Positions 24,881 to 51,903 of a stretch of 64,000 bases of DNA are shown one piece after another (the stretch's first letter is position 1; each line of letters begins with the position of its first letter). The stretch lies in the IMG/VR virus record IMGVR_UViG_3300025759_000064, positions 1 to 64,000 of that record; one strand, 5' to 3'. The notes under the pieces are model-generated. The model did not search any database, was not told where the DNA came from, and saw only the letters and a program-made list of their open reading frames with translations. This stretch comes from a virus. A program made the translations under genes and the position numbers.

Positions 24881-26050
24881 TCACTTAAGGTCTCTTACGC
24901 TCCCTTGTGCTCCGAAGAAAGTGGTCCATAGTTCTCCCATGGTACGGTATAGTCCTTCTTGGCCTAGTCTGTTAATTGCGAATGGGTCACCAGTTTCGAT
25001 ACCACTCTCAAAGTATTGTGTTGGAATTGCTGTACTAAAGTGCAAGTAGTCTGTGTCTAGGTAGTAGATTCTTGATAGTGTATCTGCTGCCATGTTCTTT
25101 GTTGGGATGATTGGTACACCGTTGTATGTTGCTACGATGAAACCAGCCTCGATTCCGGGTACACCCTTTACACCGTTGTAGGTAGGGGTAACTCTCTTCT
25201 CTTCCATGAACCTCTGTTGTGATTGTAGAAGTTGTTGGATTCTCATTAGAGTATCGTATCCAGTTAGCATAACTTTCGGGTTTCCACCACGAATCCACAT
25301 CTTTTGGAACATCTCGTCTAGTAAGTCTAGAGATAGTGTTCTGTCAGTAGGTGTACCGCTAGAAGCGTTAACACTCATTTCTGCGTTTGACCATGAGTTT
25401 GCACTCCTGTCAATACTGTACATATCCATATCTCCGTCTGCACTTACGTGCCCTGATGCAGCGCTAACTCCTGTTGTTGCGTTTGCACTGTTTTGGAAAC
25501 CGGAAGTAACTCGGTCAAGAGACTCGAAGTTGTTACCTGCGACTGTATCTACGTCAGTACACATCATTTTGTTGATTACCTCAGCGTGATGTTTACCCAT
25601 TTCCTCTTTCATTACAGAGCGTATGTCTCCCATTCCGTCATCCTTGTCAGCAAGGAAGATTGCAGTTTCAGACATATCGAATGTGTGTGCGATAGTCTTT
25701 GGTTTTGCTGCTACATGTTGGAATGTAGGTTTGATTGTTTCAGGTAGTGTTGCGTTCTCTGCAACTCCGCTTCCAGTAATTGCACCAGCATTTGGTCTGC
25801 CAGTGATAACGCGCCATCCGCTTCTATCCCACGGTTTCTTTGGTAGTATAGAGAATGCATTGAACTCTTGGTTCAATTGTGACCATACTTTGCGACCATA
25901 GATTGCTTGGTATGTTCCACCTGTTGTTGACAGCATAGGGCTGTCGGCCTTGAGTAATTCACTACCGGAGTATGAGTAACCCATTGCGTTACCTGCTCCA
26001 TAGTAGTATCTTTCCATGTCAGTTATTGTTCGTACATAATTTCGTGCCAT
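24881..26050 (-). CDS. Major capsid protein (HK97 fold)
   Basis: A 389-residue protein downstream of the protease/scaffold gene, the canonical HK97-type order. It has an N-terminal arm (about 1-50), a P-domain and E-loop-like region (SGVAENATLPETIKPTFQHV near 95-115), a spine-helix stretch (SVMKEEMGKHHAEVINKMM) and a C-terminal A-domain with a nucleotide-free core (NPKVMLTGYDTLMRIQQLLQ, then VPIIPTKNM and YYLDTDYLHF). It begins with ATG after GGAGA. No other candidate capsid protein is present. The HK97-fold call is from order plus these fold-typical segments. Confidence 0.85.
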   Translation of the reverse strand: MARNYVRTITDMERYYYGAGNAMGYSYSGSELLKADSPMLSTTGGTYQAIYGRKVWSQLNQEFNAFSILPKKPWDRSGWRVITGRPNAGAITGSGVAENATLPETIKPTFQHVAAKPKTIAHTFDMSETAIFLADKDDGMGDIRSVMKEEMGKHHAEVINKMMCTDVDTVAGNNFESLDRVTSGFQNSANATTGVSAASGHVSADGDMDMYSIDRSANSWSNAEMSVNASSGTPTDRTLSLDLLDEMFQKMWIRGGNPKVMLTGYDTLMRIQQLLQSQQRFMEEKRVTPTYNGVKGVPGIEAGFIVATYNGVPIIPTKNMAADTLSRIYYLDTDYLHFSTAIPTQYFESGIETGDPFAINRLGQEGLYRTMGELWTTFFGAQGSVRDLK

Positions 26051-26085: not shown

Positions 26086-27465
26086 TCACTCGAATGCTTT
26101 GGATGCCAAGTTGTGAACTTCGTCCCATGACATGTTAGCCAAATCCTCCGTTGATGGAACTGTTAGTGCTGGTGCACTAGATTCCGATTTTGTGATTGCT
26201 TCTCCTGTTTCTGCTGGAGTAGTGATAGATTCAATGCGCTCTGAAAGTGCACTAATTGCTTTTGTTATCTCGTCTAGAGGACCACGTGCATCATATGCTG
26301 CTGCTTCCGCTTTTGCAATTTCTGCTGAACGCTCGGAAGCGTATCTGTTAGCAAAGTTGCTTTCTAGAGAGCCACGGAACTCTTCTTCAAGAGCAGCCGC
26401 TTTGTATACTTCGTATGCAGACTCGATGTCTGAATCTGATAATGTTGCAGGGTTAATGAAATCTGATTTCTTAACACTTCCACCGCTACCTGTTGTAGCA
26501 GCAATAGCCCCAGTTGAAGGATTTCCGCCTTCTTGTGTTCTACCCGGTGCTTGACCAGTTAGACCTTTGTGATTTGCTGAGATTTCCTCAGGTGTTGAAC
26601 CCATGTTTTGTTTTTCTAGGTTATCAAAGTGAACACGTGCCTCAGCAGTGTCAACTCCAGCACTCTTTAGAGTGTCTTCCATCCAGTTAAGATAGTCAGA
26701 TGTGATAACATCAGAATATTCTGACTTTTCTACATCAGCATCTTCTTTCTTTTTATCATCTTTCATATCTTCTTTCTTACCGTCTTTCTTGTCAGCGATA
26801 GCCTCTTTCAATGCTGGTGGCATTTCGCCTTTCTCCATATCGTCAAGCCTACCTTCTAAACGAGATAGTACGCTGCCAAGTTGTTTCATCATTTCATTAT
26901 CGTTTTCTGTTTCTGTCAATTTATTCACTTCCGTGTTATTTTTATCTTCTTTGAGTATGCTAAATGTTGCTTCGGGATTGATGCCTTTTTCACAAATCGT
27001 TATTTCGTGTAGTTCCAGTTTACTAATTTCTTGGTAATCTCCTCGTTTTGGGTCTGATTTTCTGACTCTCTTAAACGCTTGACCACCGATACTGAATCCT
27101 CTGAGAACGCCTTTTCTGATTTCTGCTGAAACCTCTTTTGCTTTCTCGATGTCGTCACGCAGTTTTACTACCACAAACATTCCGACATCATCGACTTCGC
27201 TTTTCCACAACCTCCCTTCGTTATCTGTATAATTCGGTACTACATCTCCAACTTGTATATTACTGTGAGCCAATTGAACGTTTCTGTATGACGGATTTTC
27301 CATGAACTTCCGAAATGCGTGTTTCAATGCCTCCTTTGTTATTACGTCGCCTTGCTTGTCTACAACTTCCACACTGGCATAGCCAGCGACGATGAGGTCA
27401 TTAGCACCCTTAAGGATACCAATTGTCTCTTCGCCAGTTCTGAATAGTTGTTTACTACCGAGCAC
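26086..27465 (-). CDS. Prohead protease fused to scaffold-like domain
   Basis: A 459-residue protein starting at GTG (an in-frame TAA lies just upstream). Residues 20-165 match the HK97-type prohead serine protease: catalytic His67 in AHSNIQVGDV, Ser125 in LRGFSIGGQA, and the C-terminal ELHEITICEKGINPEA signature. Residues about 185-459 are long, charged, helical and Lys/Glu/Asp-rich, as expected of an internal scaffold. The end (LANMSWDEVHNLASKAF) is echoed by the C-terminus of the protein at 33472-33819. Likely function: guides capsid assembly inside the prohead, then cleaves scaffold and other inner proteins during maturation. Confidence 0.85.
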   Translation of the reverse strand: MLGSKQLFRTGEETIGILKGANDLIVAGYASVEVVDKQGDVITKEALKHAFRKFMENPSYRNVQLAHSNIQVGDVVPNYTDNEGRLWKSEVDDVGMFVVVKLRDDIEKAKEVSAEIRKGVLRGFSIGGQAFKRVRKSDPKRGDYQEISKLELHEITICEKGINPEATFSILKEDKNNTEVNKLTETENDNEMMKQLGSVLSRLEGRLDDMEKGEMPPALKEAIADKKDGKKEDMKDDKKKEDADVEKSEYSDVITSDYLNWMEDTLKSAGVDTAEARVHFDNLEKQNMGSTPEEISANHKGLTGQAPGRTQEGGNPSTGAIAATTGSGGSVKKSDFINPATLSDSDIESAYEVYKAAALEEEFRGSLESNFANRYASERSAEIAKAEAAAYDARGPLDEITKAISALSERIESITTPAETGEAITKSESSAPALTVPSTEDLANMSWDEVHNLASKAFE

Positions 27466-27510: not shown

Positions 27511-30500
27511 CTACTCATCAAGGTTTTTATCATCAAAAACGCTAGACTGCGAGGCTGTTTGTTTCTTTTTCTGTTTTCTACCCGGATAATCTTCGGGTTT
27601 CTCCAAGTCCTCAGTAGGTCGTTTCTTCATATCCCAATCGGGTAAAGACTGCTCTGCTGTCAAAGAAGTAGGCCCGCGTGGGCTTTCTACGCCCCCACCA
27701 ACATCTATCCCTAAACCACGTCCGGCCATGTTACTATGTCCTTTTTCCATCTTATCTAATGCTCTTTCAATAAGTAAAAGCGCTTTTGCCATTTCATTAG
27801 GCTTCATAATTAAATTGCTATCTTTCTTTGGTTTTAGAATGCCAGCGCTTTGTTCTTCTATTTTATCAGAATCAATGTGATTAACAGCAACCTCGCTGTC
27901 TCCCTTTACTTCTAACTCTTCTTTTAACAATTCAGTTAATCCTTCTTGCCAATAAGACTCAAGACTCTTTGCTAACTTTAACGAGTAATCTGAGGCAGTA
28001 ATTTCTCCTATCGCAGCAACAGGGTTGACTGCTTGATTATCTACAATATCATATTTCACGACATCTTCGGGCAATCTAATAATAAAGTGACTATCATCAA
28101 TCTCCATAGTAAATGGAACATGGTAAGTAATATCAGATTTAGCAAGCATAACCCACTTCGGGTGTTTCTCTTCACCTTTCATGTATGTAGACTTAGCATC
28201 ACGTAGTAATAATTTATCAGAATCTTTGCCTAATTCTTTTACAGCATCTTCTAATCCAACTTCATCTGTGATTCTAATGTCGGATGGACTAGGTACAAAG
28301 ACAGGATGATAACTTTCAAATTGTCCTCTTAAGATTTTGATTCTCTCGCGTGTAGTTAGTTCGGTTACATCATCCGTGTCGTATAGCAGAATATCATTAA
28401 TGTAAAACTCACCATCATTTAATATCCCATCAATAACAAAGTTTTTCTTACAGGCTGCTCTAAACGATGCTCTCATTTCATCTTCACAAGATTGCTTTAC
28501 GCCATTTTCATCTTCTAATTCAACACGCCCATTCTTTTTACTAACCTTACATCTCTTTCCGTCTTTCTGTATAGAAACTACCCATTCTCCTGTAAAGCCT
28601 CTTAATTCGGACATATCTTTAATATCAAATATTCTATGTAAAGGTTCTATCAAAGGTATTTCCTTTGGTAAATCTGCTTTTGAAATATTTGTGAAACTGT
28701 CACTAGGCGTTTGACCAGTATCGTTTTGAGTTAACTGAGTAGGATTTTGTTGAAATGGCTCTGCGTTTGTTAACATAGATTCAACGTGTTGAGGTGAATG
28801 TGTATCTTTGTGTAAAGATTGTAAATATGTTAACGGTAGAGAATGAAACTTTTCTTCTGAGGTATTTGTACCAACACTAATATTTCCATTGTAATCATGT
28901 TCTGCACCTATTTCGGCTTGGCCGCTCCATCCCCAATCCATCAAACCGCTAGTAAAGTGGTCTTGCGGTACAGCCCCTTCTAAACTTCTAAGAGGTTTTA
29001 CTGGCGCTGTCATCCAACCTATTTCTTTCTTAGTTGCAACGGGTACATTTGGTTTCAAATCGATATCGGGGCTAGTATCAAAAGAAAGAATATTACTTGC
29101 AATATCTTTTCTTCTTGCGTGATGGTATTCTAATGATGAGTGTCCTCTTTGACTTTGATGTAATAGCGTCCCTTCATTACTTTTATTATGAGCATTATGG
29201 AGTTTGCTAAGTTTAGTCAATGGTGACGGTGCTTGATGGTATTGTAATCCATATCCTCCTAACTTCATTTCATTTCTTGCATTTTGATGTAAAAAGTTTA
29301 ATCCTTTGTATGAAGGATTTCTTTTGAATAACCCACGCGCTCTATCAGCATCCCTATTAGTGGTTGTAGAGATTTGTCCTTCTTTCGGATGTCCTTTAGG
29401 ATATACGTTGCCTGTATCCTTTCTATCGGGCGGAAAACCAGCCTTTGCTTCTCTGTATAAATTATCTAAGTGAGTGTGAACATCACCGTGTCCTTTACCA
29501 TCAAACAATTTTTTATCATCGGGATGCCATTGCAACGGCTTACCATCAACACTCATTGTAGCAAGTTGACCTATGCTGTAAGCATGTACTGGACCGGATA
29601 AAGTTTGTAAATATCTTTGCGCATGTTCTTTATGAGCATCGTCGTTAGGTAAATCTAACATTTCTAATACATCTTGTACCCCATGTTTACTTGGGTCAAT
29701 TACGTTATTTGTTAATGGGCCTAAAGTTTTCATTTGATTTGCTAAATTATAATGAGTATCAGATGTCATATCTTCTTCTTTCTTAGTATAATGATGAGCG
29801 CGAATAGATATATTATGGTCGCCATCCATGTAAAGACCTCGCTGTGCATCTTTTACCCCTCTTAATGTATTGAGTAATGCTTTTGGATTATCAGGGTGAA
29901 ACGCATTAGGATGTTCTTTTTCAATCGCGGGTTTTATTTTTGTTCTAAAATATTCAGCAACCGCTTGTCTATCGTCGGTATGAGCCTCTTCCATATTTTT
30001 TCTCACATTACCCCTATCGCCCTGTTTTTTAGACCCTGTACTAGTATACTCTCTTTTTCTTTTTTCTTTCATTCCCATATCAGACTTAATTTCTTTTATT
30101 TTGTCTCGCAAAGAAGTTATGATTTCAGAGTCCTTCGCCCCACGTTGTTCTATGTCTAATTCGTTTTGCAACATCTCTAAATGTTCTATGTCTTTTCCAC
30201 TTACTACATCCCCTACGGTTTTTATCGATGCGGAAGGAAGATTAGTCATTACTGTATCTAAATCATCTGTGGTAGAAAGATAATTACGGTTGTTTTCTAT
30301 ATCTGACCATTTAATAAAATTATTAGCAGGTGAATTAGGTGGTGAGGCTCTACGATTTATAGTAGAAAGTAAATGCGAATGACCTGCTAACATATTGATT
30401 GAAGTTTCGTCTTTACCTGCTTTACTTCTTGCTGTATACGGATTATATGAAAAAATATTGTTTTTATCTAATTCTCTAGTAGTACGGCTTTTCCCATCAT

Positions 30501-32925
30501 AACCGACCCAGCCATTTTCTTCTTCATCTCCATATTCTAATATTGGTGCTAGACCCGGTGAACGGGTATGGTCGTGGTCGGAACTGTTAGTCTTGTTGGT
30601 TCTACCTTTACCTCTTTTACTCCCAGTTTTATATTGAGAATGTACAGTAGCATCTGTTTTTGATAATATACCTAGAGCGCTTGTATGATTAGGTACACCA
30701 TATTCTAAGTAATCAGAATGTAAATGTCCGTATGCACCTACTGTTTTAGGATTGGCTTCTATCTTTCCCCCTTCTACTTTTTCTCCTAAAGCAGATATAT
30801 TTCCTTCAAAATCATGCGCTTTGAAATCATGTAAGATTTCTGCTAGTGTGGTGATAGGTCTACCGTGACCCCCAACGTTTGCAAAAGCGTGTGAGAAAGG
30901 ATACGCTAAGGTTCTATACTTTCCGTCATGGTCATAAAAATGTTTTTCGTCACCTTCTTTCAATAAAGGATTATCTTTTCGTGGACCATTTGGAGTTCTA
31001 AACGTAGTTAATGCGTTTCTTATAGGTTTAGCCATTTCAGAAATACCCATGTGTGTTTGTAATTCTTTTTTTACGGCTTTCATTACGTCTTTCGATAAGA
31101 AAGGCTCTTTTTGCCCCTTAAACATAGAATGCATAGACGGTGATAAATCATCTTGATTGTAACCCACAAGTTTGTGTAAGCCGTCGGGACTCAAGAGAAT
31201 ATGACTTCCATCTGATAATTTTTTAGCAAAAGCCTCTTTTAGAGTACCGCCTTCTTTCAAAACTTTCTCATACTCTTTAATATCACTTGGGCTAAAAGGT
31301 GGTAAGTTTCTTTGTGCTGGTCCATGTTCACCCGCTTCAAAATATTCTAATAATTTATCACCTTCATAGTGGTCTTCTATATTGTCTATGAGATGTTGGT
31401 AAGCGGTTTTGTCAAACATTTTTTTCTTTGTATCATTTTCATCGTACGAATAAGGCTCACCTTCGTGTACGAAACCATCTTTTAGATAGACACCTTTTAG
31501 CGCTTTGGCTACCATTCCTTCTGTTCCGAGTCTAGTATTATCAGTATCTGCTTCTATATGTTTAGCCTTATTAGCGCCCGGATGCTTTTGACTTCTAGTC
31601 CAATGGTCTACCTCTGCATTATTTCTCATTTGCATATTGGCTTTTATTCTATGCATGTGTATTCTTTGACCATCGGGTAAAGTAACAGACTGATGCGCTG
31701 GGTTGTCTGTACCGTATTTATCTATATGTTCTATAACTAAACTTCTTTCTTTTGGGGATAAAAACTCTAAACCTTTATTCCATGTATCCCAACCCATACT
31801 ATGACCATGAGGTATTTTTTCTGTATCGGCTAAAGTAGACCTACCCCTTGCATCTAAATCATCATAAGGATTATCACTAATTTTAGGTTCTATCGTTTCC
31901 GTGAAAATATCATTACTATCTAATTTTTTCATTCTATCGTTAAAATGGGCTTCTTCTAAATCCATACCCTGACTTTCTAACTCTTTTACAAGTTTAGGGT
32001 TTTCTTTTTGCCATCTTTTGAAATCTCTTAACCTTAGAGTATGTTGGTGTTTAGTGTCACTTTCATGCCCATCATTACCACCTAAGAAAGATAGTTGTCT
32101 TGATTTTCTGTTTTTGTTTACACCATGATAAACACCATGGTCTTTATTTCTATCTCTTTCATTGTAGTCTAACTTGTGGGCGTTTTCTATCTCCATACCC
32201 TTTTCCGCCCACTTGTTATCCGAAAGATAGTATTCTCTCAACATGTTTTCCCACTCAGGCATTCCGGTATCGACTCTTCTTTTACGAACTGGATGATGTT
32301 TTTCATCAAACGGGTTAGCATCTAAGTAGTGCTTTTCTGTAAATGCCGTAGGTTCAATAGATGCTGGTATATTACTACGTAAATTATCTCGCCCTTCTTT
32401 CCCACCATCGAAGGCAATTCTAAAAGGATTAAATTGAGGCCACATAGAGTGTTTCATAGTATGTGGAATCATATTTCTTGCACGATATGGACCATATTTT
32501 TCACCGTCTTTTTGTGGGCTGTGTAACGGATAATTATACTTTTTATTATCGTTTTCATCCCAAGTCCGTTTTGCTCTTCCAATCGTTTTTATTCTTCTTG
32601 GTTCTTTTCCTTCTTCTTGTATGTGTCTAAATACAGTATCTCGCCAATTATGGTCTGTGCCATACGATTTAGCCATCGCTGGTCTAAAGTTGTGCATTGT
32701 GCCAAACTCTGTTTTTTTCTCTTTAGCCTTAGATAGAATATATTCACTGAAAGAATCGCACACAACGTCAACATCTATTTTCTCATATGTGATGTTATGA
32801 TTCTCTAAGTTCATCTTAGAAATTAGATAATCTCCAACCTCTTGTTCCGGTGGAGTATTATCGTAAATTGCTTTTAGCAATTCAGTACGGTGTCTGATGT
32901 AAACTTGTATCGCATCTTCTTCCAT
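27511..32925 (-). CDS. Very large inner virion protein with degenerate DNA-ligase-like domain
   Basis: The frame begins at 32973, but ATG at 32923-32925 follows GAGAGGGAATGTC and avoids most overlap with the small gene upstream, giving 1,804 residues. Residues 1-1410 are His/Asn/Lys/Asp-rich and not recognised. Residues about 1425-1680 resemble the nucleotidyltransferase core of ATP-dependent DNA ligases: motif I-like VVSIQKDGKR, motif III-like FVIDGILNDGE, motif IV/V-like DKLLLRDAKSTYMKG and PKWVMLAKSD. At the nucleotide-accepting lysine (K in KxDG) there is Gln1453, so catalysis is doubtful. The C-terminal 100 residues are Lys/Pro-rich. It lies between portal and protease genes, so a virion-internal or injected protein is inferred. 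Confidence 0.6.
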   Translation of the reverse strand: MEEDAIQVYIRHRTELLKAIYDNTPPEQEVGDYLISKMNLENHNITYEKIDVDVVCDSFSEYILSKAKEKKTEFGTMHNFRPAMAKSYGTDHNWRDTVFRHIQEEGKEPRRIKTIGRAKRTWDENDNKKYNYPLHSPQKDGEKYGPYRARNMIPHTMKHSMWPQFNPFRIAFDGGKEGRDNLRSNIPASIEPTAFTEKHYLDANPFDEKHHPVRKRRVDTGMPEWENMLREYYLSDNKWAEKGMEIENAHKLDYNERDRNKDHGVYHGVNKNRKSRQLSFLGGNDGHESDTKHQHTLRLRDFKRWQKENPKLVKELESQGMDLEEAHFNDRMKKLDSNDIFTETIEPKISDNPYDDLDARGRSTLADTEKIPHGHSMGWDTWNKGLEFLSPKERSLVIEHIDKYGTDNPAHQSVTLPDGQRIHMHRIKANMQMRNNAEVDHWTRSQKHPGANKAKHIEADTDNTRLGTEGMVAKALKGVYLKDGFVHEGEPYSYDENDTKKKMFDKTAYQHLIDNIEDHYEGDKLLEYFEAGEHGPAQRNLPPFSPSDIKEYEKVLKEGGTLKEAFAKKLSDGSHILLSPDGLHKLVGYNQDDLSPSMHSMFKGQKEPFLSKDVMKAVKKELQTHMGISEMAKPIRNALTTFRTPNGPRKDNPLLKEGDEKHFYDHDGKYRTLAYPFSHAFANVGGHGRPITTLAEILHDFKAHDFEGNISALGEKVEGGKIEANPKTVGAYGHLHSDYLEYGVPNHTSALGILSKTDATVHSQYKTGSKRGKGRTNKTNSSDHDHTRSPGLAPILEYGDEEENGWVGYDGKSRTTRELDKNNIFSYNPYTARSKAGKDETSINMLAGHSHLLSTINRRASPPNSPANNFIKWSDIENNRNYLSTTDDLDTVMTNLPSASIKTVGDVVSGKDIEHLEMLQNELDIEQRGAKDSEIITSLRDKIKEIKSDMGMKEKRKREYTSTGSKKQGDRGNVRKNMEEAHTDDRQAVAEYFRTKIKPAIEKEHPNAFHPDNPKALLNTLRGVKDAQRGLYMDGDHNISIRAHHYTKKEEDMTSDTHYNLANQMKTLGPLTNNVIDPSKHGVQDVLEMLDLPNDDAHKEHAQRYLQTLSGPVHAYSIGQLATMSVDGKPLQWHPDDKKLFDGKGHGDVHTHLDNLYREAKAGFPPDRKDTGNVYPKGHPKEGQISTTTNRDADRARGLFKRNPSYKGLNFLHQNARNEMKLGGYGLQYHQAPSPLTKLSKLHNAHNKSNEGTLLHQSQRGHSSLEYHHARRKDIASNILSFDTSPDIDLKPNVPVATKKEIGWMTAPVKPLRSLEGAVPQDHFTSGLMDWGWSGQAEIGAEHDYNGNISVGTNTSEEKFHSLPLTYLQSLHKDTHSPQHVESMLTNAEPFQQNPTQLTQNDTGQTPSDSFTNISKADLPKEIPLIEPLHRIFDIKDMSELRGFTGEWVVSIQKDGKRCKVSKKNGRVELEDENGVKQSCEDEMRASFRAACKKNFVIDGILNDGEFYINDILLYDTDDVTELTTRERIKILRGQFESYHPVFVPSPSDIRITDEVGLEDAVKELGKDSDKLLLRDAKSTYMKGEEKHPKWVMLAKSDITYHVPFTMEIDDSHFIIRLPEDVVKYDIVDNQAVNPVAAIGEITASDYSLKLAKSLESYWQEGLTELLKEELEVKGDSEVAVNHIDSDKIEEQSAGILKPKKDSNLIMKPNEMAKALLLIERALDKMEKGHSNMAGRGLGIDVGGGVESPRGPTSLTAEQSLPDWDMKKRPTEDLEKPEDYPGRKQKKKQTASQSSVFDDKNLDE

Positions 32926-33085: not shown

Positions 33086-33472
33086 TTATCCCTCAACAAG
33101 ACGGTCTACTGTATCGTGAGTGTTAACTTTCAAAGTGTCTAAATTAACACTTTCACTAGATGCACCTTTGTTAGCAATATCTTCTGAATCTAAAAGACTT
33201 TGATTTGTGTGATAGAAAGCGTTGTATGTTTGACCGCCAGTTTCTATGTTAAATTGTACACCTTCCGGCTGTGTACCAAAACTTGTTTCTTTGTGATGAG
33301 TGCCTTTCTTCATAGAGGTGCATCCCGTTTTCATCATACAATCCATTTTTTTCATACCACAAGAAGGGCACTTTGCTTCTTTTTCAAGAGTATCTAGTCT
33401 CTCTGCTATTTCTTCTGCTTTTCTTAACATCTCGTATGCCTTAGGTGAGGCCGCTTCATATCTAGGTTTCAT
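33086..33472 (-). CDS. Hypothetical protein with Cys-rich motif
   Basis: A 128-residue protein. The N-terminal helix (EEIAERLDTLEKEAKCPSCG) runs into a Cys-rich patch (CPSCGMKKMDCMMKTGC) that may bind metal. The C-terminal half is polar (TFGT.. and FNIETGGQTYNAFYHTN segments). The stop of the upstream gene overlaps its ATG, so it is coupled to the scaffold-motif protein. Family not recognised. Confidence 0.6.
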   Translation of the reverse strand: MKPRYEAASPKAYEMLRKAEEIAERLDTLEKEAKCPSCGMKKMDCMMKTGCTSMKKGTHHKETSFGTQPEGVQFNIETGGQTYNAFYHTNQSLLDSEDIANKGASSESVNLDTLKVNTHDTVDRLVEG

Positions 33473-33819
33473 TAATACATCTCCTTTACTTCTCTATGCT
33501 GGTCTGCCATTTCATGTATATCGTCCCAACTCATTTCGTGAATCTGTTCGTTAGAATATTTATCAGGGTTATTTTCATCTTGTTTGAGTATAGTACCTGA
33601 TGATGTTTCCATATCTGCTCTAAAGGCATCAACAGTAACATCTTCCGACAATGGTGTAGAATAAGGCACGTAACCTGCTTTTCTCAAAATTATTTGCGGA
33701 TTATCCATTGCTTTTCGTAGCATGGCATTTTCAGCACGAACAGATTGAATATCTCTATCCATGGTTTCCATTTTAGAAATTAGAGCATTCATTAAACGCT
33801 CAGTTACATCTTCTTCCAT
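33472..33819 (-). CDS. Coiled-coil protein sharing the scaffold C-terminal motif
   Basis: A 115-residue protein with an N-terminal coiled coil (residues 1-45; KMETMDRDIQSVRAENAMLR) and a C-terminal segment EQIHEMSWDDIHEMADQHR closely matching the end of the prohead protease/scaffold (LANMSWDEVHNLASKAF). A shared C-terminal helix in two head-assembly proteins suggests docking to the same partner, perhaps the capsid protein. A minor scaffold or head protein is the best guess. Confidence 0.6.
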   Translation of the reverse strand: MEEDVTERLMNALISKMETMDRDIQSVRAENAMLRKAMDNPQIILRKAGYVPYSTPLSEDVTVDAFRADMETSSGTILKQDENNPDKYSNEQIHEMSWDDIHEMADQHREVKEMY

Positions 33820-33828
33820 TCTAAAGCC

Positions 33829-34206
33829 TCAGTTACCGGGAGAATAACGTCCGTATGTGCCTCTTGCTGGCTTCATTTGTGAATTAGTTCTTGAGGACAT
33901 AATTGTTCCATTTAATTGTCTATCTCTCATTGAAGGGTCGAAGTTAGAACCAGTTTTGTTAAACTTTAGAACTGGGCTTCTGTGTTCCCATCCATTGTCG
34001 GGAGTAACTACTTCTGTTTCTGCTTTCTTTATTGCAAACTCTAAGTCTGTTTCCATGTTAGTTGCATACTTTAATAATTCATTTAGATGTTGGCGTGCGT
34101 CGTCTGCATTACCGTCTTCTAGAGCCTTAGTAAAAGCCTCATTATGTGCGGTCATTTTTCTAGCCATTGGATGCATTTTCAATAAGTCCATGTGGTTCAC
34201 TACCAT
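33829..34206 (-). CDS. Hypothetical head-region helical protein
   Basis: A 125-residue protein just downstream of the portal gene. Residues 1-65 are helical (LLKMHPMARKMTAHNEAFTK; then DARQHLNELLKYATNMETDL). Residues 75-125 are basic, Ser/Asn/Arg-rich and probably disordered. No Cys or catalytic motif is seen. Virion assembly role inferred from position only. Confidence 0.55.
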   Translation of the reverse strand: MVVNHMDLLKMHPMARKMTAHNEAFTKALEDGNADDARQHLNELLKYATNMETDLEFAIKKAETEVVTPDNGWEHRSPVLKFNKTGSNFDPSMRDRQLNGTIMSSRTNSQMKPARGTYGRYSPGN

Positions 34207-34231: not shown

Positions 34232-35962
34232 TTATGCGCCTTTTATCCGTCTAGAGTTCATTAAAGCGCGAGAATTGTTCTGCGCAACTGAATTAGGAGG
34301 ACCGCGTTGTTGAACACTGGTTACTGGTGACCCAATACCCGGACTTCCTCTATTTTGAGGAGAGGCTGGTCCTCTTGGAGTACGGATACCCATACCCTCA
34401 CCACCGGGCTGTGATGGTGGCATCGCATTAGCCAACAAACCCGGAGGACTTGCGCCCATTTGTTGAGCCATTGGGCCACCGCTTCCGGGTGACATTCCTT
34501 GAGGCGGTTGCATTCCCGGCGGCATCGGAGGTGCGCCATCTTGTTGCTCATTCATCTGTCGATAAGTAAATCGTATATCTCTATCTCCCTGTTCCATTAA
34601 TTCAGGCTTGTATCCAAGCATCATCATTCTTTGTGCAAGGTTAACTTCCATCTCATCTCTTCGTAATCGAGTAATCTCATCTTCTTCTTCATTCGGATAA
34701 AGAGTCAACTTCCAATCTGTTACTTCCATTTGTCTTAACATTCTAGGAAATAGAACTTGCGTGTAGACTTTCTGACCAAACTCAACAGCCCTGTTAGTTA
34801 CAAGTATTTGCATACCTTCGTTATTTAATCCGCCGGATTTTCCGCTATCAATCATAAAGATACTACTTACACCAAAGAATGCTGCTATTCTATTACGCAT
34901 CTCATCTCTAACAGGAATATATTGCATCTCTTCTAACGTATCCATGAACTTTACCCAATTCACACCACCTCTACCAGTTTGGCTTTCAATACCAATTTTA
35001 GGTATGTAGTGTGGGTCTCTTTCCATTTTTTCGTCTACACTTTTCCAAAATGATTTCATTGATTCTAGATTATCTGTGGTCACAGAGATAATTCCTTTTG
35101 GACTTCTTCTCTTCTGATATGAGGTATACATGTAATTATCCATTGCAGTAAGTGTCATAGCCTGTCTCCACATTGTGTTCACAGGACTTCTACCATACAA
35201 TTTAGATGGGTTGTATTTACTAATGTGTATTACTTCTCCTTCTAAGTAATACTGTGTTTTACCACTACCAGCCATATTTGCATAGTGCGCTTCTTGCATA
35301 TTATTGCCGCAAACTTCACACTTGTCATCTTGACCGGGATAGGAGATTTGGTCTCTATGAAGAGGACATACTTTGTATCTTCCACCTCGCACACCGCGCT
35401 TATCAGATATAATTCTCATAAAGATAGGGTCGCCTCTAATCAATTCTTTAACCCTGTAAAACTTAATGTCCGATGTTTCGGGGTCTACGAAATATTCTTT
35501 TACACAGATTAAGAAAGCATCATCTACTATTTCTAAATCTCTTTCTATTTCTTGCAACACGTGCATGAAATCTTGTTCCATAGAGTTTTGTTGCTCTAGT
35601 AACCACTTAGGGTAGATTAGTTGTTGTACGTCAGGCTGTTTTACTTCCCCTCCACATAACTTACAACTATCTACTTCGTGAGTATATTCTTCACCGCAGT
35701 CCTTGCACTTGTGCTGAAACTTCTTTTCCCAATAATAACCTCTTCTAAATATCTCTTGTCCTAGTTTAGAAATTACAGTTCTAAGAATCAAGTTTTCTTG
35801 TGATACTGCATAAAGCGCTGGAATAGTAATACCTTGTGCTAATACAGGCTCTTGAATACCAGTTGTGTATAACGGCATTTGCGGCTCAGGAGTTGTTCTA
35901 CTTCTAAACGGACTACCTAATGCAGAGATTAATCGACCTATTCTTCCTTGTTCTTCTGCCAT
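34232..35962 (-). CDS. Portal protein with two zinc-ribbon insertions
   Basis: A 576-residue protein with portal-type sequence: PSKLYGRSPVNTMWRQAMTL (about 250-270), RRSPKGIISVTTDNLESMKS, the stem-like stretch MRNRIAAFFGVSSIFMIDSG, and a helical C-terminus. The last 110 residues are Pro/Gly/Met/Gln-rich. Unusually, two four-ligand metal sites are inserted in the N-terminal half: Cys86/89/100/103, and Cys199 with Cys215/218 and possibly His202. The portal forms the ring through which DNA is packaged. It is two bases from the LAGLIDADG gene and close to TerL, as in packaging modules. Confidence 0.85.
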   Translation of the reverse strand: MAEEQGRIGRLISALGSPFRSRTTPEPQMPLYTTGIQEPVLAQGITIPALYAVSQENLILRTVISKLGQEIFRRGYYWEKKFQHKCKDCGEEYTHEVDSCKLCGGEVKQPDVQQLIYPKWLLEQQNSMEQDFMHVLQEIERDLEIVDDAFLICVKEYFVDPETSDIKFYRVKELIRGDPIFMRIISDKRGVRGGRYKVCPLHRDQISYPGQDDKCEVCGNNMQEAHYANMAGSGKTQYYLEGEVIHISKYNPSKLYGRSPVNTMWRQAMTLTAMDNYMYTSYQKRRSPKGIISVTTDNLESMKSFWKSVDEKMERDPHYIPKIGIESQTGRGGVNWVKFMDTLEEMQYIPVRDEMRNRIAAFFGVSSIFMIDSGKSGGLNNEGMQILVTNRAVEFGQKVYTQVLFPRMLRQMEVTDWKLTLYPNEEEDEITRLRRDEMEVNLAQRMMMLGYKPELMEQGDRDIRFTYRQMNEQQDGAPPMPPGMQPPQGMSPGSGGPMAQQMGASPPGLLANAMPPSQPGGEGMGIRTPRGPASPQNRGSPGIGSPVTSVQQRGPPNSVAQNNSRALMNSRRIKGA

Positions 35963-35963
35963 A

Positions 35964-37106
35964 TTATATCGCCTCCGCCCATTTTGTTATATCGTCGGCT
36001 TGCACTCCCCATTCCGAAAGGAGCGCATTCGACTTATTGGTATCATCGCTCCAATTGTAGTATCTTACGACTTTCTTTAATTCTTCTTTCTTTAATCCAT
36101 CGTTTTCTTCTATGTATGCTAAAACCGCTTTTGCTTGAGTTTTCTTCATTTCTAAAAACGGTAATATACCTTTCAATAGTTTACTAATATCTGCCTTAGA
36201 ATAAAATTGTAATCTGTGTTGACTTCTTTGATTATCTTTGTATATTTTTTGGTCTAATTGTAAAACACCGCAATCTAAAGTTTTTTGCAATTGTTCACAA
36301 TGTACTTTACCTCTTGAACCAGTAGCGATAAATCCGGCTCTAGGTTCACCTCTCCCTGTAATTGTAATATACCCATCTGCATCTAAGAAACCCGCAGCAT
36401 ACGCCCATGGGTCTTTTATGATTAATCCAGTTCTATCCATTTTTACAAATGTGCCTCTAGATGCCCCGGCCATAATATCTACTTCTTCCCCATACATACT
36501 GAGTAATTTTGCTAATTTCATAGATGTCATACTTTTGTGTAATATATTTCTATCGTAAAGATTAGCAAATAACGTTCTACCGCTCATAGTACCTTTTTCT
36601 AAAAGTATTTCAGCACTTTTTACTAACGCCTCTCGGTCTTTTTCATTTAGTCTATCCATTTGATGAAGTGTACTTTTCCATACTTTCCTTGCATCTCTTT
36701 TACCGTCCATTGCAGCCACCCATGCTTTTTTCTGTTCGTCTTGCCACACATCTTCATATTCTTCAAGCATTTTCAAAGCGTCGTCTGATTTCTGCCATTG
36801 GTGACAGGCTCTTTGTAAACTAACTCTACGAGAGTCGCCAAACTTTCTCAAGGCTTTCATATTATTATCAGACATTCCTAATTCTTTTATCACATCAGAG
36901 TATTGCTCACACCAACTATGCATTTTTAGAGTAGCATCTAATTCCATACTTTTCATAGCCCGTATATCTTCTATGGCTTTATCAATAAACTCTTTTTCAT
37001 CTTTGTTGCTTCTTCTAGCCTTTCTAAGTCGATGTACTAACTCTGTCGCAGAATAACCTAAATTGGCTTCAAACCAACCATCGTTATTCTTAGAAAAAGT
37101 ATTCAT
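35964..37106 (-). CDS. LAGLIDADG-type protein between TerL and portal
   Basis: A 380-residue protein. Residues 1-225 are helical and charged, and not recognised. Residues about 232-340 carry a single LAGLIDADG helix (AAGFLDADGYITITGRGEPR) followed by text typical of the homing endonuclease fold (GKVHCEQLQKTLDCGVLQLD, then RLQFYSKADISKLL). One motif per chain implies a dimer if it cuts DNA. It has its own start and stop, so it is not an intein. It may be a free-standing homing endonuclease riding in the packaging module, or a domesticated DNA-binding protein given the long N-terminal domain. Confidence 0.7.
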   Translation of the reverse strand: MNTFSKNNDGWFEANLGYSATELVHRLRKARRSNKDEKEFIDKAIEDIRAMKSMELDATLKMHSWCEQYSDVIKELGMSDNNMKALRKFGDSRRVSLQRACHQWQKSDDALKMLEEYEDVWQDEQKKAWVAAMDGKRDARKVWKSTLHQMDRLNEKDREALVKSAEILLEKGTMSGRTLFANLYDRNILHKSMTSMKLAKLLSMYGEEVDIMAGASRGTFVKMDRTGLIIKDPWAYAAGFLDADGYITITGRGEPRAGFIATGSRGKVHCEQLQKTLDCGVLQLDQKIYKDNQRSQHRLQFYSKADISKLLKGILPFLEMKKTQAKAVLAYIEENDGLKKEELKKVVRYYNWSDDTNKSNALLSEWGVQADDITKWAEAI

Positions 37107-37194: not shown

Positions 37195-38676
37195 CTATGG
37201 TATCATTATCGAGTCATTTTTGCTTTCGCCCTTAAACCACTCATCAAATCCGGGCATGTAATCATCTAAGAGTGTAATGCTTCCCTTGAACTCCTTAGAT
37301 GCCCAATTTGCTAGTGCTAAACTCATCGCCAAGTCATCATGTACGCCTACACTTTCTAGTTTACCATTTTTCTGCATTCCGAATCTATTCAACTCTTGCT
37401 CAACTTTGTGAGTGTAGGTTCTACTTCTTTCATCACCATATGGTAATTTGATGTGGCCTTGTTCAAATGCGAGTAATAAACTCATAAACAACGACTCTTT
37501 ACGAGTACGAGTAGTCATAAATACTCTAATTGGCATATCTGCTCTCAACTCTCTCATTTCTTGTTCTAACATACGCTGAAAATTATTACCTTCAAGTTGA
37601 ATTAAATCAGGACTAAATCGACTATTTAGTAATACCATCATTCTTTTCTGAGCCATAGAAGACATACCTCTCTCATGTACCACGTGAACTATTTCTTTTG
37701 TTGCTTCACCGGGCTTTTGTCGCATCACAGTTATAGCGGTAAAATCGGCATTTTTATCAGATGATATAGCGGGGTCGTGTCCCACAAAATGTTGACCAAA
37801 GACTCCGTTTGCTTCACCTTCTTCGTTATAGAAAGTTTCAGCCCTGTCAATCAAAACAAGTTTAGGGTCTCTACATTTTTCTAATAATGGGCCGGGGAAC
37901 ATACTCGCCACGTCGTGAATCGGCTCACATAGGTATTCACGGCTAAACTGTATTGCTGGCATAGACATTCTTCTTTTCTCTAAAGATTCTAAATCCCATC
38001 TTTCAGGCCATAAGGCAACTCCTTCTTGGTTTATTGCTGGATAAGTTTCTACTCTAAAAGTTTCTTTTTGTTCTAATTCAGCGTATAAATCGTTGTAACT
38101 GAAAGGAGTTCCTACCATCATTAACTTACTACTGTGGTGAAGCACAGGTAACAAAACACCGTAAAACCAATCTGCTGTTTTAGCAAGTTCACTTGCAGTA
38201 GTACCCCATAGAATATCGTCACATACAACAATGTCAGGGTGGAAACCACGTGTAGCACCTCCAACTGACTTTGCCATCATACGGCTACCATTGGAAAACT
38301 CGAAGTAAGATTTAGCCCAAGGTTTACCCTGTGGCTTCAAATCTCTAAGTATATCGTGCCCTTCTATTGTATTACGTACAAAGCGCATGTGTTCAAGAGT
38401 TTGTTCAAGGGAGTGTGAGAATATCATAACGTGGGTATTAGGTTTGAATGCCGCTAACCATAACGCATACATCATAAAGAAAACTGATTTTCCGTGGTCT
38501 CTTGACGCTTTAACACAAAAATACTGAGATTCTTCTAATCCTTCTTTCCAAGATTCGTGATGGTGATTGTACATGAAACCTAGCATATCTACAAAAAAGT
38601 ACTTGAAAGATTTCTTAGACATCTCCGTATCCATATTAAGAATAAAGGCATCCATTTCTTCCTTATTCTTACTCAT
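37195..38676 (-). CDS. terL: Terminase large subunit
   Basis: A 493-residue packaging motor. The ATPase domain shows Walker A at residues 57-64 (ASRDHGKS, an Arg/His variant of the usual loop), Walker B at 149-154 (IVVCDD), and the coupling motif near 188 (MVGTPFS). The C-terminal RNase-H-like nuclease begins with Asp301 in FVGHDPAISSDKNADFTA, and further acidic residues lie in HDDLAMSLALAN near 460. It cuts and drives genome DNA through the portal. It overlaps the gene before it by four bases (ATGA type). Length and motif order are those of ordinary tailed-virus TerL proteins. Confidence 0.93.
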   Translation of the reverse strand: MSKNKEEMDAFILNMDTEMSKKSFKYFFVDMLGFMYNHHHESWKEGLEESQYFCVKASRDHGKSVFFMMYALWLAAFKPNTHVMIFSHSLEQTLEHMRFVRNTIEGHDILRDLKPQGKPWAKSYFEFSNGSRMMAKSVGGATRGFHPDIVVCDDILWGTTASELAKTADWFYGVLLPVLHHSSKLMMVGTPFSYNDLYAELEQKETFRVETYPAINQEGVALWPERWDLESLEKRRMSMPAIQFSREYLCEPIHDVASMFPGPLLEKCRDPKLVLIDRAETFYNEEGEANGVFGQHFVGHDPAISSDKNADFTAITVMRQKPGEATKEIVHVVHERGMSSMAQKRMMVLLNSRFSPDLIQLEGNNFQRMLEQEMRELRADMPIRVFMTTRTRKESLFMSLLLAFEQGHIKLPYGDERSRTYTHKVEQELNRFGMQKNGKLESVGVHDDLAMSLALANWASKEFKGSITLLDDYMPGFDEWFKGESKNDSIMIP

Positions 38677-39338: not shown

Positions 39339-41765
39339 TTAGACACCCCCGAATGAAACCTTGACCACTTTAACTACTCTATCGGAATAGCCGTATGTCT
39401 TAGATATTCTCTCCCAATCGCCTTTAGTGTTTAATATTGTACTAACATCCATAGATGTGATGTCTAGCATTTTCGCTAAGTAAAGAATGTCTGTAATAGA
39501 ATCTACGCTTAAATTATTAGAAGGTAAATGCTTGATAATTTCATCATCTTTTCGAGCATCTTCTATTTGTAATATTTCTACTGCTTTAATTAGTCTATCC
39601 ATGGCGGCATTATGCCCATCTTTACTTTTAGTAGGATAGTCAGAAAGAAAACGTTGGTAGGGGTCACCCATATTTTGTTGAAACTCTCGTTGTCTCTGAG
39701 AAGATACTACACCAACTGGTGGTACTTGGGTTTCTCCGGGGTAAAGCACTTGCGCTTGCTGAGGATGGTATTGTGGTCGAGGTAATCTAGACATTACATT
39801 TTGTACTGTTTCAGGAGACGCATAACCAAACTTTGCTCTCATTTGTTGGTCAGGAGTTATTTTTTTATTTGCAACTAATTGACGAAAGTGTTCTGTATTT
39901 GGGTCTACTTGCAATTGTGCTCTTCTTGCAGCATCGCTTAGTGGTGGTGGCGCACCACTAGTTGCAGCCGGAGGTGCACCGCCGGAAACTGGAACAGGTG
40001 CACCGGATATACCTTTTTCTTTACCCGGTTGTGGTTTTAATGTGGTTTCTTCGGGTTGCATAGATGCGCCGACTGGTGACATAGATGATGTCATGTCTGA
40101 ATATCTAATGTGTTCTGGCACACCTAATTGCCCCCTATCTTCGTGTGTACCTCCTTGAAGTATATTGTCTACAATTGGTTGTAATTGCTGTAATTCTTCT
40201 TGTGAAGGTATTTCTTTTCTTTCATGTCCCCCCGCTATGGTGTGGCTATGAAACAAATGGTCTAGCATTATTTTTACATTAGGCGCAGCCGCTCTTGTTT
40301 CAGGAGTATCATACAATCTAATTTTTGCCGCTTTCAAATCTTCGGGCGATAAATCATCTTCTGCATGATTGATTCCCTGAGATGCTGCAAGCACAACATT
40401 ACTCCATGCGTCTTTTGCTCTATTATGATGACCTATACCTCCTCTTACTTGATGTTGCTTATACGCTTCAATTTTTTCAGTATGGCTCATAAAATGGTCA
40501 AGCCCTTTTCCTTCTTCTGCTGTATCTCCATATCTCTGCCCATATAGATGATTCATTTTTCCAACAGTTTGACCTGCTTGTTTTATACTCCCATCTTCAT
40601 TAAACTTAGGATTTCTATTTTCACCGTAAACTGCTTGAAACGCTGGAAACTGAGATAAATAATTAGCCGCTTCTAATTGTCCTTGAGGTGTTTGTAATAA
40701 TACTTTTAGCGGCTTACCGTTTATTTCACCGGGTATATTTGCTAAATGTTTCATAGCCCCTGCGCTATCAACTATCAAGTTATTAACAACCCCTTCTCTA
40801 TTTTTCCCAGTTACTAAAGCCATGTGATGAAGAAAACTATCTACTGTTTGTTTTCTTGTTTGTCTTTTTCCACCCGGTGCTGCATCAATTTGAGGTATGT
40901 AGTAAACGTTAGGATAATGATGGGCTATTCCCCAAGATGTAATATTTTGAAAGGCTCTACTATCAGGTATTCTACTACCCCATTTTAATCTTTGACTTCC
41001 GTGTAATCTATCACCATCTAATTTACCTGAGTCTATCGAATTAGCACCAAACTGCATCCCACCTTTTCCATCAGGAACTAAATGTAATCTATGTGGTTTT
41101 ACATAAGGTTTCTTTACCCAACTATGTTTTTGCGGATTAGGATGTCCCAGTTGTGCCATAACTTCTCCAAGTTGTTTATTGAAAGGTATAGCATAAGATT
41201 CTAGATAAGTGCCACTTCTATGATTATCGCCGTGTCTATTAGTATACGTTGTAATTAAATTACCATCTTGAGTATAATTACTTCTTACTCTATGGTCTTG
41301 TTCCGTTAATGGTGCTAAATGCATTTTTCTCCAACCAACGCTATCTACATTAGGTAAATGATTGTCTTCTTTATGGTTTTGATTATGCATATCTATGGCT
41401 TTTTGAATTACATCTTTTGCTGGCGCTTTTATTCCATGTTCTAACAAAGAGTCCCCAACTGCACGTATTATTCCGTCAATACCATGCATGTGTTCTCCGC
41501 CGGATTCATCAGCGTATATTTGTTCTCCATGCATACCTGTTTTCCAATCACCGGGAAAAACGTGACCCATTCCGGGCACCCCCGTTTCTTCTTCCGAGTG
41601 AGCGCCAGTGTGAGCAAACGCTGGAATATCAGGCATATTTGGGTCTCGGTTATGAGCCTCAGGCGGTGGGAATCTTAGAGGATTCATTTTACCTGCAAAT
41701 AAACTATAATTACCATCGCCCTTTCTAAGTAGAAGAGATTTCATAATTATAGAGGATTTAATCAT
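39339..41765 (-). CDS. Large hypothetical virion-module protein (808 aa)
   Basis: An 808-residue protein, rich in His, Asn, Gly and Pro in its first two thirds. Residues about 545-700 are Pro/Gln/Ala-rich linker. The last 80 residues are helical (MDRLIKAVEILQIEDARKDD, then SITDILYLAKMLDITSMDVS). Its composition resembles the N-terminal part of the 1,804-residue protein, which suggests a common type of inner virion protein, but I find no shared motif. It begins with ATG overlapping the previous stop. Confidence 0.6.
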   Translation of the reverse strand: MIKSSIIMKSLLLRKGDGNYSLFAGKMNPLRFPPPEAHNRDPNMPDIPAFAHTGAHSEEETGVPGMGHVFPGDWKTGMHGEQIYADESGGEHMHGIDGIIRAVGDSLLEHGIKAPAKDVIQKAIDMHNQNHKEDNHLPNVDSVGWRKMHLAPLTEQDHRVRSNYTQDGNLITTYTNRHGDNHRSGTYLESYAIPFNKQLGEVMAQLGHPNPQKHSWVKKPYVKPHRLHLVPDGKGGMQFGANSIDSGKLDGDRLHGSQRLKWGSRIPDSRAFQNITSWGIAHHYPNVYYIPQIDAAPGGKRQTRKQTVDSFLHHMALVTGKNREGVVNNLIVDSAGAMKHLANIPGEINGKPLKVLLQTPQGQLEAANYLSQFPAFQAVYGENRNPKFNEDGSIKQAGQTVGKMNHLYGQRYGDTAEEGKGLDHFMSHTEKIEAYKQHQVRGGIGHHNRAKDAWSNVVLAASQGINHAEDDLSPEDLKAAKIRLYDTPETRAAAPNVKIMLDHLFHSHTIAGGHERKEIPSQEELQQLQPIVDNILQGGTHEDRGQLGVPEHIRYSDMTSSMSPVGASMQPEETTLKPQPGKEKGISGAPVPVSGGAPPAATSGAPPPLSDAARRAQLQVDPNTEHFRQLVANKKITPDQQMRAKFGYASPETVQNVMSRLPRPQYHPQQAQVLYPGETQVPPVGVVSSQRQREFQQNMGDPYQRFLSDYPTKSKDGHNAAMDRLIKAVEILQIEDARKDDEIIKHLPSNNLSVDSITDILYLAKMLDITSMDVSTILNTKGDWERISKTYGYSDRVVKVVKVSFGGV

Positions 41766-43642
41766 GGAGTTCTACCGCCTCGACTTGTTAAGTGGTCTAA
41801 AGGGTTGATTCCAAAAGTACGAGGGTCATTAGTTGCATCTTCCGTTGCACCTTCCGGCCTAGTAGTTTCTTTAGTGGGCGCATTATTATGCGCTGGTAAA
41901 TTACTAGCAGAACCTACGTTTGAATCACCTTTACCTTTTTTCTTGGTTTCTTTTCTTTTCATCGCTCTTCGAGCGTCGTTAACGAGTTGGCGAAGTTCGG
42001 CCATGTCATAGTATGATAGTCCCCGCTTTTGTAATTCGCTACCTTCTCCAACTTCACTAGTCATCACAGGTGCACCTTGTATAGCAGAACTAGGTAATCT
42101 AGGTCTGTAAGTTGGACTCTGACCGGACATACCCTGAACACCAACGCCCATTCTTGGTTGCGACATTACAGGTGGACTAGGTATACTAGGCGATGGTAAT
42201 GTAGCCCTGCGCGGTGAAGATGGGGGCATTAGTGGTGGTGGTCTAATAGACCTAAGTGCAGGTCTTCTCATTTGTTGCGCTTGTCCGGGTAGTAAACTTT
42301 GCAATGTACCACCGCCAGTCAAACCTGCTTTGTAAGAACGTGCACCGAATCTTGACGGTGTAGATGAAACGGTTCGTATGTTACCTAAACGCTTTCGTGC
42401 CTCAGATTGACCGAGGTATTGTCTGTATCTTTGTACATCTTTAGACATAGGTTGTTTAGTTTTTACACCCCTGTGAGACATTTCGACAGCAAGATGCGCT
42501 CTACTTAATCCAGTTTTCTTCCCACCAGCAATACCACGCATTCTAGCCTTGGCTCTTCTAGATGTAGCACTGCCGGGTGTCATTCCGCCCGGTGGTCTCT
42601 TGAACTCACCAGTTGAAGGTCGCCATTTCTTCTGCCTTTCTTTATGTGCTTTTCTTGCTTTTGCCCCTTTCTTTCTTTTCGGCTTTTTACCTACAAAGCC
42701 CTGTCTCTCGCTTTTGAGTAATTGAAATGCTATTTCTATGGGATTACCTTTCAAATCACCCATCATTGACTGGTCAAAAGACGGTTGTGAGTTTTTATGT
42801 TTCAACGCTTTCAGAGTAGCCATGTACATACTCATATTAATCACTGCTAAATCTTCGTGATTCATGTCGTGATAATTAGTTTGATTTCTCATATTTTGTA
42901 AAAGGTTATTAGCAGGGTCTGACAATTGCCTTGGAGCACCTCGCGGAGAACGACTCATCACCATGTAATCATGTAATAGTTTCAAATCACTTTCAGTTTC
43001 ACGCAATTGAGGCTCAAATGCCGCAACACCTTCATTGCTTCTTGTCAACTCATTTACAGCATCGTCATGGTCTTGTACCATTGGATGATTTACATTCATG
43101 TGTAAGAGTGGATATCTGTTTTCATCAAATGAGTTACCAAACATACTCATCTCATTTATATCACCATCTAAATATGACTGTAAATGTTCATCTTTGTATG
43201 CTTTTAATAATTGGAATGCTATTTCCATAGGTTCTCCCATGGCAAAGTTCTGCCCTCCGGCAAAACCCGGCCCTCTAGCCTGATTTGCTAAACTTGTAAG
43301 TGCGCCGTAATTACCCGGAGTACCAGTCATCAAAGATGGCTCTAACTCATTATCAAACTTAGTAGGTTGTAAATCTTCATCTTCATCTTCAACGGCAGGT
43401 AAGTCAGCAGTTGTAATAGAAAGATGTTTTAATCGCTTCATTTCATTTGCTCTATCTTTACGTTCTTGTTTTTTACGGTCAATACGAGCATCACGATGTT
43501 CTGTATCTTCTCCGCCGTATGCACCTTCTTCTTCGTGATTTGCGCGGAACATGTGAGAAGATTCACTTCTCGGTCCATACATTCGCGTATCGCTACCCGT
43601 ACTTGTCATACCTGATTTTAGAATACGCACAGGTTTACTCAT
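41762..43642 (-). CDS. Basic multi-linker protein with two internal helix tags
   Basis: The ATG at 43640-43642 follows GCGGGGGTTCAAC and is preferred over one five codons earlier; 626 residues. It has two internal copies of the helix tag common in this genome: GEPMEIAFQLLKAYKDE (near 135) and GNPIEIAFQLLKSER (near 300). After the second copy comes a very basic stretch (KKPKRKKGAKARKAHKERQK) and a long Pro/Arg/Ser-rich disordered region (about 330-540), as in DNA-condensing or internal virion proteins. The last 90 residues include a helix (MAELRQLVNDARRAMKRKE). Tag copies separated by linkers suggest a precursor cut by the prohead protease; this is inference. Confidence 0.6.
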   Translation of the reverse strand: MSKPVRILKSGMTSTGSDTRMYGPRSESSHMFRANHEEEGAYGGEDTEHRDARIDRKKQERKDRANEMKRLKHLSITTADLPAVEDEDEDLQPTKFDNELEPSLMTGTPGNYGALTSLANQARGPGFAGGQNFAMGEPMEIAFQLLKAYKDEHLQSYLDGDINEMSMFGNSFDENRYPLLHMNVNHPMVQDHDDAVNELTRSNEGVAAFEPQLRETESDLKLLHDYMVMSRSPRGAPRQLSDPANNLLQNMRNQTNYHDMNHEDLAVINMSMYMATLKALKHKNSQPSFDQSMMGDLKGNPIEIAFQLLKSERQGFVGKKPKRKKGAKARKAHKERQKKWRPSTGEFKRPPGGMTPGSATSRRAKARMRGIAGGKKTGLSRAHLAVEMSHRGVKTKQPMSKDVQRYRQYLGQSEARKRLGNIRTVSSTPSRFGARSYKAGLTGGGTLQSLLPGQAQQMRRPALRSIRPPPLMPPSSPRRATLPSPSIPSPPVMSQPRMGVGVQGMSGQSPTYRPRLPSSAIQGAPVMTSEVGEGSELQKRGLSYYDMAELRQLVNDARRAMKRKETKKKGKGDSNVGSASNLPAHNNAPTKETTRPEGATEDATNDPRTFGINPLDHLTSRGGRTP

Positions 43643-51902: not shown

Positions 51903-51903
51903 T

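Follow-up and report, generated by a model that had tools for sequence, protein, structure and literature searches.

A ligase-like domain with an apparently dead active site in the giant head-module protein of a putative magrovirus

What does a ligase-like domain do in a protein of 1,804 residues, encoded between the portal and the protease of a tailed virus, when a glutamine stands in the place of its catalytic lysine? The question is raised by one gene (27511-32925, minus strand) in the window, which is the whole stretch of DNA analysed here and covers the first 64,000 bases of a virus record of 110,919 bp. The open frame, which a sequence-only reading of the window had proposed with no strand given, was found to be real: it runs on the minus strand from an ATG at 32925 to a stop at 27511, and the plus strand is full of stops. 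M1 was nearly invariant among the relatives of the giant protein, which supports the ATG start over an upstream TTG. Orthologues of about 1,110-2,560 aa were found at the same place in the relatives. The answer that we favour, with a probability of about two in three, is that the gene encodes a core protein of the magrovirus head module, the ligase-derived C-terminal part of which now serves as a non-catalytic docking or scaffold module.

The source virus reads as a magrovirus from its genes. Magroviruses (order Magrovirales) are tailed viruses of marine Poseidoniales archaea, and the gene content described for them matches that of the record. An HK97-type major capsid protein (MCP), a portal, a large terminase subunit (TerL), and a protease were found together with oppositely oriented archaeal-type replication genes. 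In the record's other half, plus-strand frames were read by eye as family B DNA polymerase (PolB), the RFC small subunit, and PCNA, and further frames as a group II chaperonin and a primase-like protein. The portal was related to those of the haloarchaeal Druskaviridae with 28-29% identity, a relationship that is also stated in the literature on magroviruses.

The head module lies on the minus strand, with TerL at 37195-38676 and the portal gene at 34232-35962 (Pfam Phage_portal; PHROG portal, 1.8e-65; Druskaviridae portals). Three small conserved genes encoding 128, 115, and 125 aa (33086-34206) occupy the gap between the portal and the giant gene. The prohead protease gene (S78; 26086-27465; Pfam Peptidase_S78, 2.8e-9) begins 45 bp downstream of the giant gene and is followed by that of the MCP, which is of the SU10 type with an HK97 fold (24881-26050; Pfam SU10_MCP, 2.4e-12; PHROG major head protein, 3.1e-59). 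A portal and an S78-type protease had already been named as the neighbours in the sequence-only reading, and both identifications were correct. The order portal, small genes, giant gene, protease, and MCP was kept in the loci with enough flanking sequence, with TerL upstream where the flank reached it; the order of the small genes was conserved across the relatives, and the 128-aa gene was undetected in some clades. In every flanked locus, the protease gene was the next gene downstream of the giant gene, except for one contig that ended earlier. The gap between the two frames was about -100 to +60 bases (200-275 bases in six members of one clade), where the small overlaps are no proof of overlapping genes because the frames run from stop to stop. 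In the Druskaviridae, HVTV-1 gp113 (1,048 aa) and gp115 ('zeta toxin', 1,313 aa) are large proteins encoded in the same gap between a homologous portal and the protease; no sequence homology was detectable between these gap proteins and the giant protein.

Two minor observations were made on the neighbouring genes. The C-terminus of the protease (LANMSWDEVHNLASKAFE) and the 115-aa neighbour (33472-33819, minus; IHEMSWDDIHEMADQHREV) have a common MSWD[DE][IV]H motif near their ends, and in one relative (L196) the profiles of the protease and of the 115-aa protein both matched a single frame. Between TerL and the portal, the gene at 35964-37106 (minus) has a C-terminal half resembling LAGLIDADG homing endonucleases (AYAAGFLDADGYITI), with a phrog_5046 match at 5e-7 and a weak match to Pfam LAGLIDADG_3; at the equivalent place in HVTV-1 lies a gene for an HNH endonuclease.

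Scans of IMG/VR yielded 47 close loci, then 86, and then at least 579 virus contigs with relatives of the giant protein. A search of bacterial and archaeal genomes from 84,980 species found no relative, and known phages gave no match to the giant protein or to the sister-clade domain. The motif columns described below were counted in 125 distinct domain sequences from the viral scans, which were the best-scoring relatives (the best 80 loci in each of the larger scans) and were gathered with the tetrapeptide HPKW as an anchor.

Residues of about 1415-1600 of the giant protein were homologous to archaeal-type ATP-dependent DNA ligases. Against the Pfam model DNA_ligase_A_M (PF01068), the protein's own sequence gave an E-value of 0.0037 and 17.4 bits, below the cut-off of 26.2. 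This weak match is not attributed to chance, because the same model was matched by each of 21 diverse relatives from the window's clade and because a sister-led profile and the Foldseek search agreed with it. In the alignment led by the sister clade, 16 of the 19 members matched the model, and the profile of that alignment retrieved PDB entries of archaeal DNA ligases at 1.3e-6 (Thermococcus sibiricus, 4eq5), 1.9e-5, 1.0e-4, and 1.5e-4, its six best matches all being DNA ligases. An AlphaFold2 (AF2) model of aa 1408-1762 had a mean pLDDT of 61, with 70-85 in the core blocks and less than 50 in part of the loop of motifs IV-V. The 29 best Foldseek matches of this model were DNA ligases or ligase-bearing NHEJ complexes (1.1e-6 to 3.5e-5), and poxvirus A20/A22 complexes (8q3r, 8k8s, and 8wpf) appeared from rank 30. 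A nucleotidyltransferase-fold, ligase-like domain in a giant head-module protein, as suggested from the letters of the window, was thus borne out by the model, Foldseek, and the profiles; structure prediction, which had been proposed as the check, returned ligases as the best matches, and the unrelated fold that would have spoken against the idea was not seen. The profiles and the model accordingly argue that the core, at aa ~1430-1605 (28111-28638, minus), belongs by descent to the covalent nucleotidyltransferase fold superfamily. The Snurportin-1 m3G cap-binding domain (PF21974), matched by 9 of 21 members at E<=1 with a best value of 0.0029 and printed scores below the 27-bit cut-off, was rejected.

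In genuine ATP-dependent DNA ligases, motif I (KxDGxR) carries the nucleophilic lysine, motif III contains the glutamate of DGE, motifs IV and V read EGxxxK and WxKxK, and an OB domain, which helps to clamp DNA, follows the nucleotidyltransferase core. The window's domain departs from this pattern in motifs I, III, IV, and V and in the OB domain. Its motif I equivalent is SIQKDGKR (aa 1451-1458; 28552-28575, minus), in which S1451, I, Q1453, K1454, D1455, G1456, K, and R1458 align with KxDGxR and place Gln1453 at the position of the catalytic lysine, as had been read from the window alone. The catalytic lysine column contained W (52), M (17), Y (14), H (13), F (9), Q (8), K (8), and L (4) among the 125 sequences, and the eight lysines occurred in sequences of the QKKPKG or QAKPNG type without KxDG. 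The search for an intact KxDG motif found none in these 125 distinct sequences (best 80 loci per larger scan); a member with an intact active site could exist outside the collected sequences. The motif III glutamate was also gone, position 1501 being I (66), V (25), Y (18), T (12), M (3), or A (1) and never E. In motif IV, E-G was not kept, the glutamate being lost in all clades, and the lysine was replaced by arginine in 122 of the 125; the latter change is not decisive alone, since a genuine ligase described below (L130) also has arginine there. The first lysine of motif V was lost in all clades and replaced mostly by L, M, or V.

The sequence-only reading had offered two fates for this site, substitution by the adjacent Lys1454 or a dead enzyme. 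The residue at the Lys1454 column was Y in 57, P in 30, K in 11, E in 9, and R in 7 of the 125 sequences, with others in the remainder, and even within the window's own clade this position was K, R, V, E, H, or Y and that of Gln1453 was Q, H, L, F, M, or Y. Lys1454 is therefore ruled out as a substitute nucleophile, being unconserved (11/125), and the dead-enzyme alternative stood. A working adenylyltransferase or ligase, in which Lys1454 or, in sister clades, an upstream lysine replaces that of motif I, would fit the closeness of Lys1454 to the canonical position and the lysine found one residue upstream of it in 68 of the 125 relatives (SKWYDGKR and similar), with the DG of motif I largely kept. 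These upstream-lysine sequences occur in different parts of the tree, where the state changes four times. However, no lysine close to motif I is shared by the whole family, the motif III and IV glutamates and the motif V lysine are gone in every clade, and the window's clade has no OB-like segment, so that we regard a working enzyme as very improbable. Judging from its residues, the ligase-like domain is catalytically dead across the family, because the catalytic lysine, the motif III and motif IV glutamates, and the motif V lysine are lost family-wide. Some residual nucleotide chemistry may persist in the clades with the upstream lysine or with a lysine outside KxDG.

Two sister subfamilies have about 100 extra residues after the core, which are OB-like by position and pattern; the Pfam OB models gave no match to this segment, and it was absent from the window's protein and its clade. 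Compared with the archaeal DNA ligase 4eq5, the magrovirus domain shares the nucleotidyltransferase core, the fold, and a recognisable motif IIIa and motif IV-V segment, and in the sister clades the OB-like segment follows in the same order. Unlike the archaeal enzyme, it is devoid of the catalytic residues and is placed at the C-terminus of a giant head-module protein, and the window's clade does not have the OB-like segment.

Although the catalytic residues were lost, the domain was under the strongest constraint in the protein. Within pairs of relatives, pN/pS was 0.07-0.16 for aa 1411-1600 versus 0.15-0.44 for aa 1-1410; synonymous sites were near saturation in several pairs, and the values are to be compared between regions within a pair rather than as absolute figures. 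The ligase-like domain and the C-terminal tail also showed the highest identity and were the most conserved part of the giant protein. The segment of motifs IV-V, RDAKSTYMKGEEKHPKW (aa 1575-1591; 28153-28203, minus), had D, H, P, K, and W in 125/125 sequences, with R in 122, S in 120, T in 123, M in 119, and G in 121. The complete conservation of HPKW is partly built in, as HPKW was the anchor of the collection; alignments gathered by overall similarity without this anchor showed the same invariance of RDAKSTYMKGEEKHPKW.

These results bear on whether a captured ligase has simply decayed here, leaving a fossil domain that no longer serves any function. The lost catalytic motifs and the OB-like segment that is present in two sister subfamilies and absent from the window's clade are what such a fossil might leave, yet the strongest purifying selection of the whole protein and a motif IV-V segment that is near-invariant, also in the collections made without HPKW, are the opposite of decay. 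Decay is ruled out by this constraint, and we give the fossil explanation hardly any credence. The dead ligase domain has probably been repurposed as a structural or binding part, since its catalytic residues are lost and it is nevertheless the most strictly conserved domain.

The remainder of the giant protein was less familiar. The N-terminal region (aa 1-750; 30676-32925, minus) is mostly helical, with a confidently predicted fold (AF2 pLDDT mostly 70-95), and its model gave no Foldseek match at E<=0.001 in the PDB or BFVD, so that a fold of about 750 residues stands without a counterpart in either database; the N-terminal 1,195 aa likewise gave no PDB sequence match of note and no structural match. 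The middle region (aa ~751-1410; 28696-30675, minus) was the least conserved, partly disordered, and variable in length according to the conservation profile, pLDDT, and pN/pS; its pN/pS was the highest in four of six pairs, and the pLDDT values cover aa 751-1195 only. Following the core, a conserved helix and tail at aa ~1700-1790 (ALLLIERALDKMEKG...GLGIDVGGGVESPRGPTSL...LPDWD; 27556-27828, minus) contained invariant columns in three alignments, and the tail had an AF2 pLDDT below 50.

We favour the reading of a head-module core protein on the basis of what the computation shows, namely the homology, the fold class, the loss of catalytic motifs, the strong purifying selection, and the conserved gene order. 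The C-terminal part would descend from an archaeal-type ATP-dependent DNA ligase, the active site of which was presumably lost before the sampled family diversified. The dead domain would then act as a non-catalytic docking or scaffold module, with RDAKSTYMKGEEKHPKW and the conserved C-terminal tail contacting either the packaged DNA or a further component of the head. The large N-terminal part would make up the bulk of the protein, which is encoded beside the protease and would belong to the prohead core or lie within the head. We infer that the protein resides in the prohead or virion, that it has the protease or MCP as a partner, and that its ligase-like domain acts by binding and not by catalysis.

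Large proteins inside the head are known from phage P1, in which the Dar proteins are linked to morphogenesis and co-ejected with DNA, DarA being cut by the prohead protease and DarB being ~2,000 aa (PMC12810830). The giant protein resembles the P1 Dar proteins (DarA, DarB, and Hdf) in its giant size and its tie to head morphogenesis, a likeness by description to a magrovirus protein known from genes, and its gene was found immediately upstream of the protease gene. Reuse of an inactive ligase also has a viral parallel in the polymerase cofactor A20 of vaccinia, whose middle domain is a DNA ligase without catalytic activity (PMC11142717). In the poxviruses (A20 of vaccinia and A22 of mpox, in the polymerase holoenzyme), as in the giant protein, an inactive ligase fold is reused inside a larger viral protein, whereas A20 serves a eukaryotic virus as a processivity cofactor in replication and the magrovirus gene belongs to the head module of a tailed virus of archaea. 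We assume that the two cases of reuse are independent. An A20-type replication cofactor was rejected as the identity of the giant protein, because the resemblance is one of fold only and the relatives carry the gene in their head module.

The sequence-only reading had suggested that the domain binds the packaged genome at DNA ends or nicks, and it could ride with that genome, for example, to protect the last-packaged end or to hold the ends for a host ligase after ejection. The position of the gene near the portal and protease, the OB-like segment retained by the sister clades, and the absence of any other recognisable ligase in all but one of 35 records are compatible with such a role. A ligase fold can also work at DNA ends without catalysing, as two reports assign catalytically inactive Lig4 a structural role in end joining (PMC9638927, PMC10858965). 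Against it, the window's ligase domain is acidic, with a net charge of -6, and its clade does not have the OB-like segment; these two features mildly disfavour DNA as the main partner. DNA binding by the window's domain is possible and not favoured, and we consider the end- or nick-binding role unlikely. Still less likely is a more specific version, in which the dead domain, at the portal or inner shell, would grip the last-packaged end or nicks and couple packaging or ejection to capsid maturation. In the open-licence literature searched, the use of ligase ancestry as a head-module DNA-end sensor in tailed viruses was undescribed. A dead enzyme domain under stronger selection than the rest of a core head protein, in a family represented on at least 579 contigs of viruses, suggests an unrecognised role in the assembly of heads or the delivery of DNA in archaeal tailed viruses.

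The domain also bears on the published gene content of the group. Magroviruses are said to encode an ATP-dependent DNA ligase in a survey and two taxonomy profiles (PMC10160649, PMC12999244, PMC10768690), and the survey was annotated with Pfam hmmsearch at 1e-5. When the records of 35 relatives, including the source record, were searched with the Pfam ligase profile (25 of them being at least 80 kb), they contained the dead domain or nothing, with one exception. The exception, L130 at 1222-2361 (record G003, 12641-13777), was a canonical ATP-dependent ligase of 379 aa with KFDG and with Pfam ligase and OB_2 domains. The dead domain was rejected as a recognisable copy of this ligase, the profile giving only E=0.065 in the wrong region and hence no match. 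Searches for an NAD-dependent ligase in 17 relatives' records and for RNA-ligase-family genes in 16 were both negative. Several dead domains reached the E-value level of the survey (1e-5) or passed the Pfam gathering score. Because a genuine ligase was present in only 1 of 35 records and the survey threshold was reached by several dead domains, many of the published magrovirus "DNA ligase" labels probably refer to this dead domain. If the published annotation rests on it, magroviruses depend on a host ligase, and the reading of an abundant ocean virus group could be corrected.

Several further features of the record were noted. A short motif, approximately M[TN][AP]FDxAWxxLK, was found near the N-terminus of at least seven small minus-strand proteins (48660-49136, 49135-49402, 53267-53614, 53611-53883, 55621-56304, 56277-56648, and 56645-57187), and a variant, xP[MI][DE]IA[FY]QLLK, inside larger minus-strand proteins (41762-43657, 50337-51992, and 52119-53264). 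The motif had 14 matches in the 110.9-kb record versus 0.9 expected in shuffled proteins, with a pattern written after examples had been seen, and its appearance suggests a tag for sorting, docking, or cleavage. Situated among the tagged small genes, the gene at 54773-55642 (minus) was HMG-CoA-lyase-like by inspection; an HMG-CoA-lyase-like gene has been reported for the Aoguangviridae. A near-identical stretch of about 60 residues, DATCDYNNDPTITMD...GTGIP.GAT.SSITNSTTFELSASTTGG, was common to a frame of at least 5,068 aa that is open at the window's end (2-15205, minus) and a 759-aa gene (18566-20845, minus), as a case of domain reuse between the two. Finally, the gene at 60683-61630 (plus) combined ArdC-N and MPTase-PolyVal, corresponding to an antirestriction-type protein with a polyvalent-protein metallopeptidase domain.
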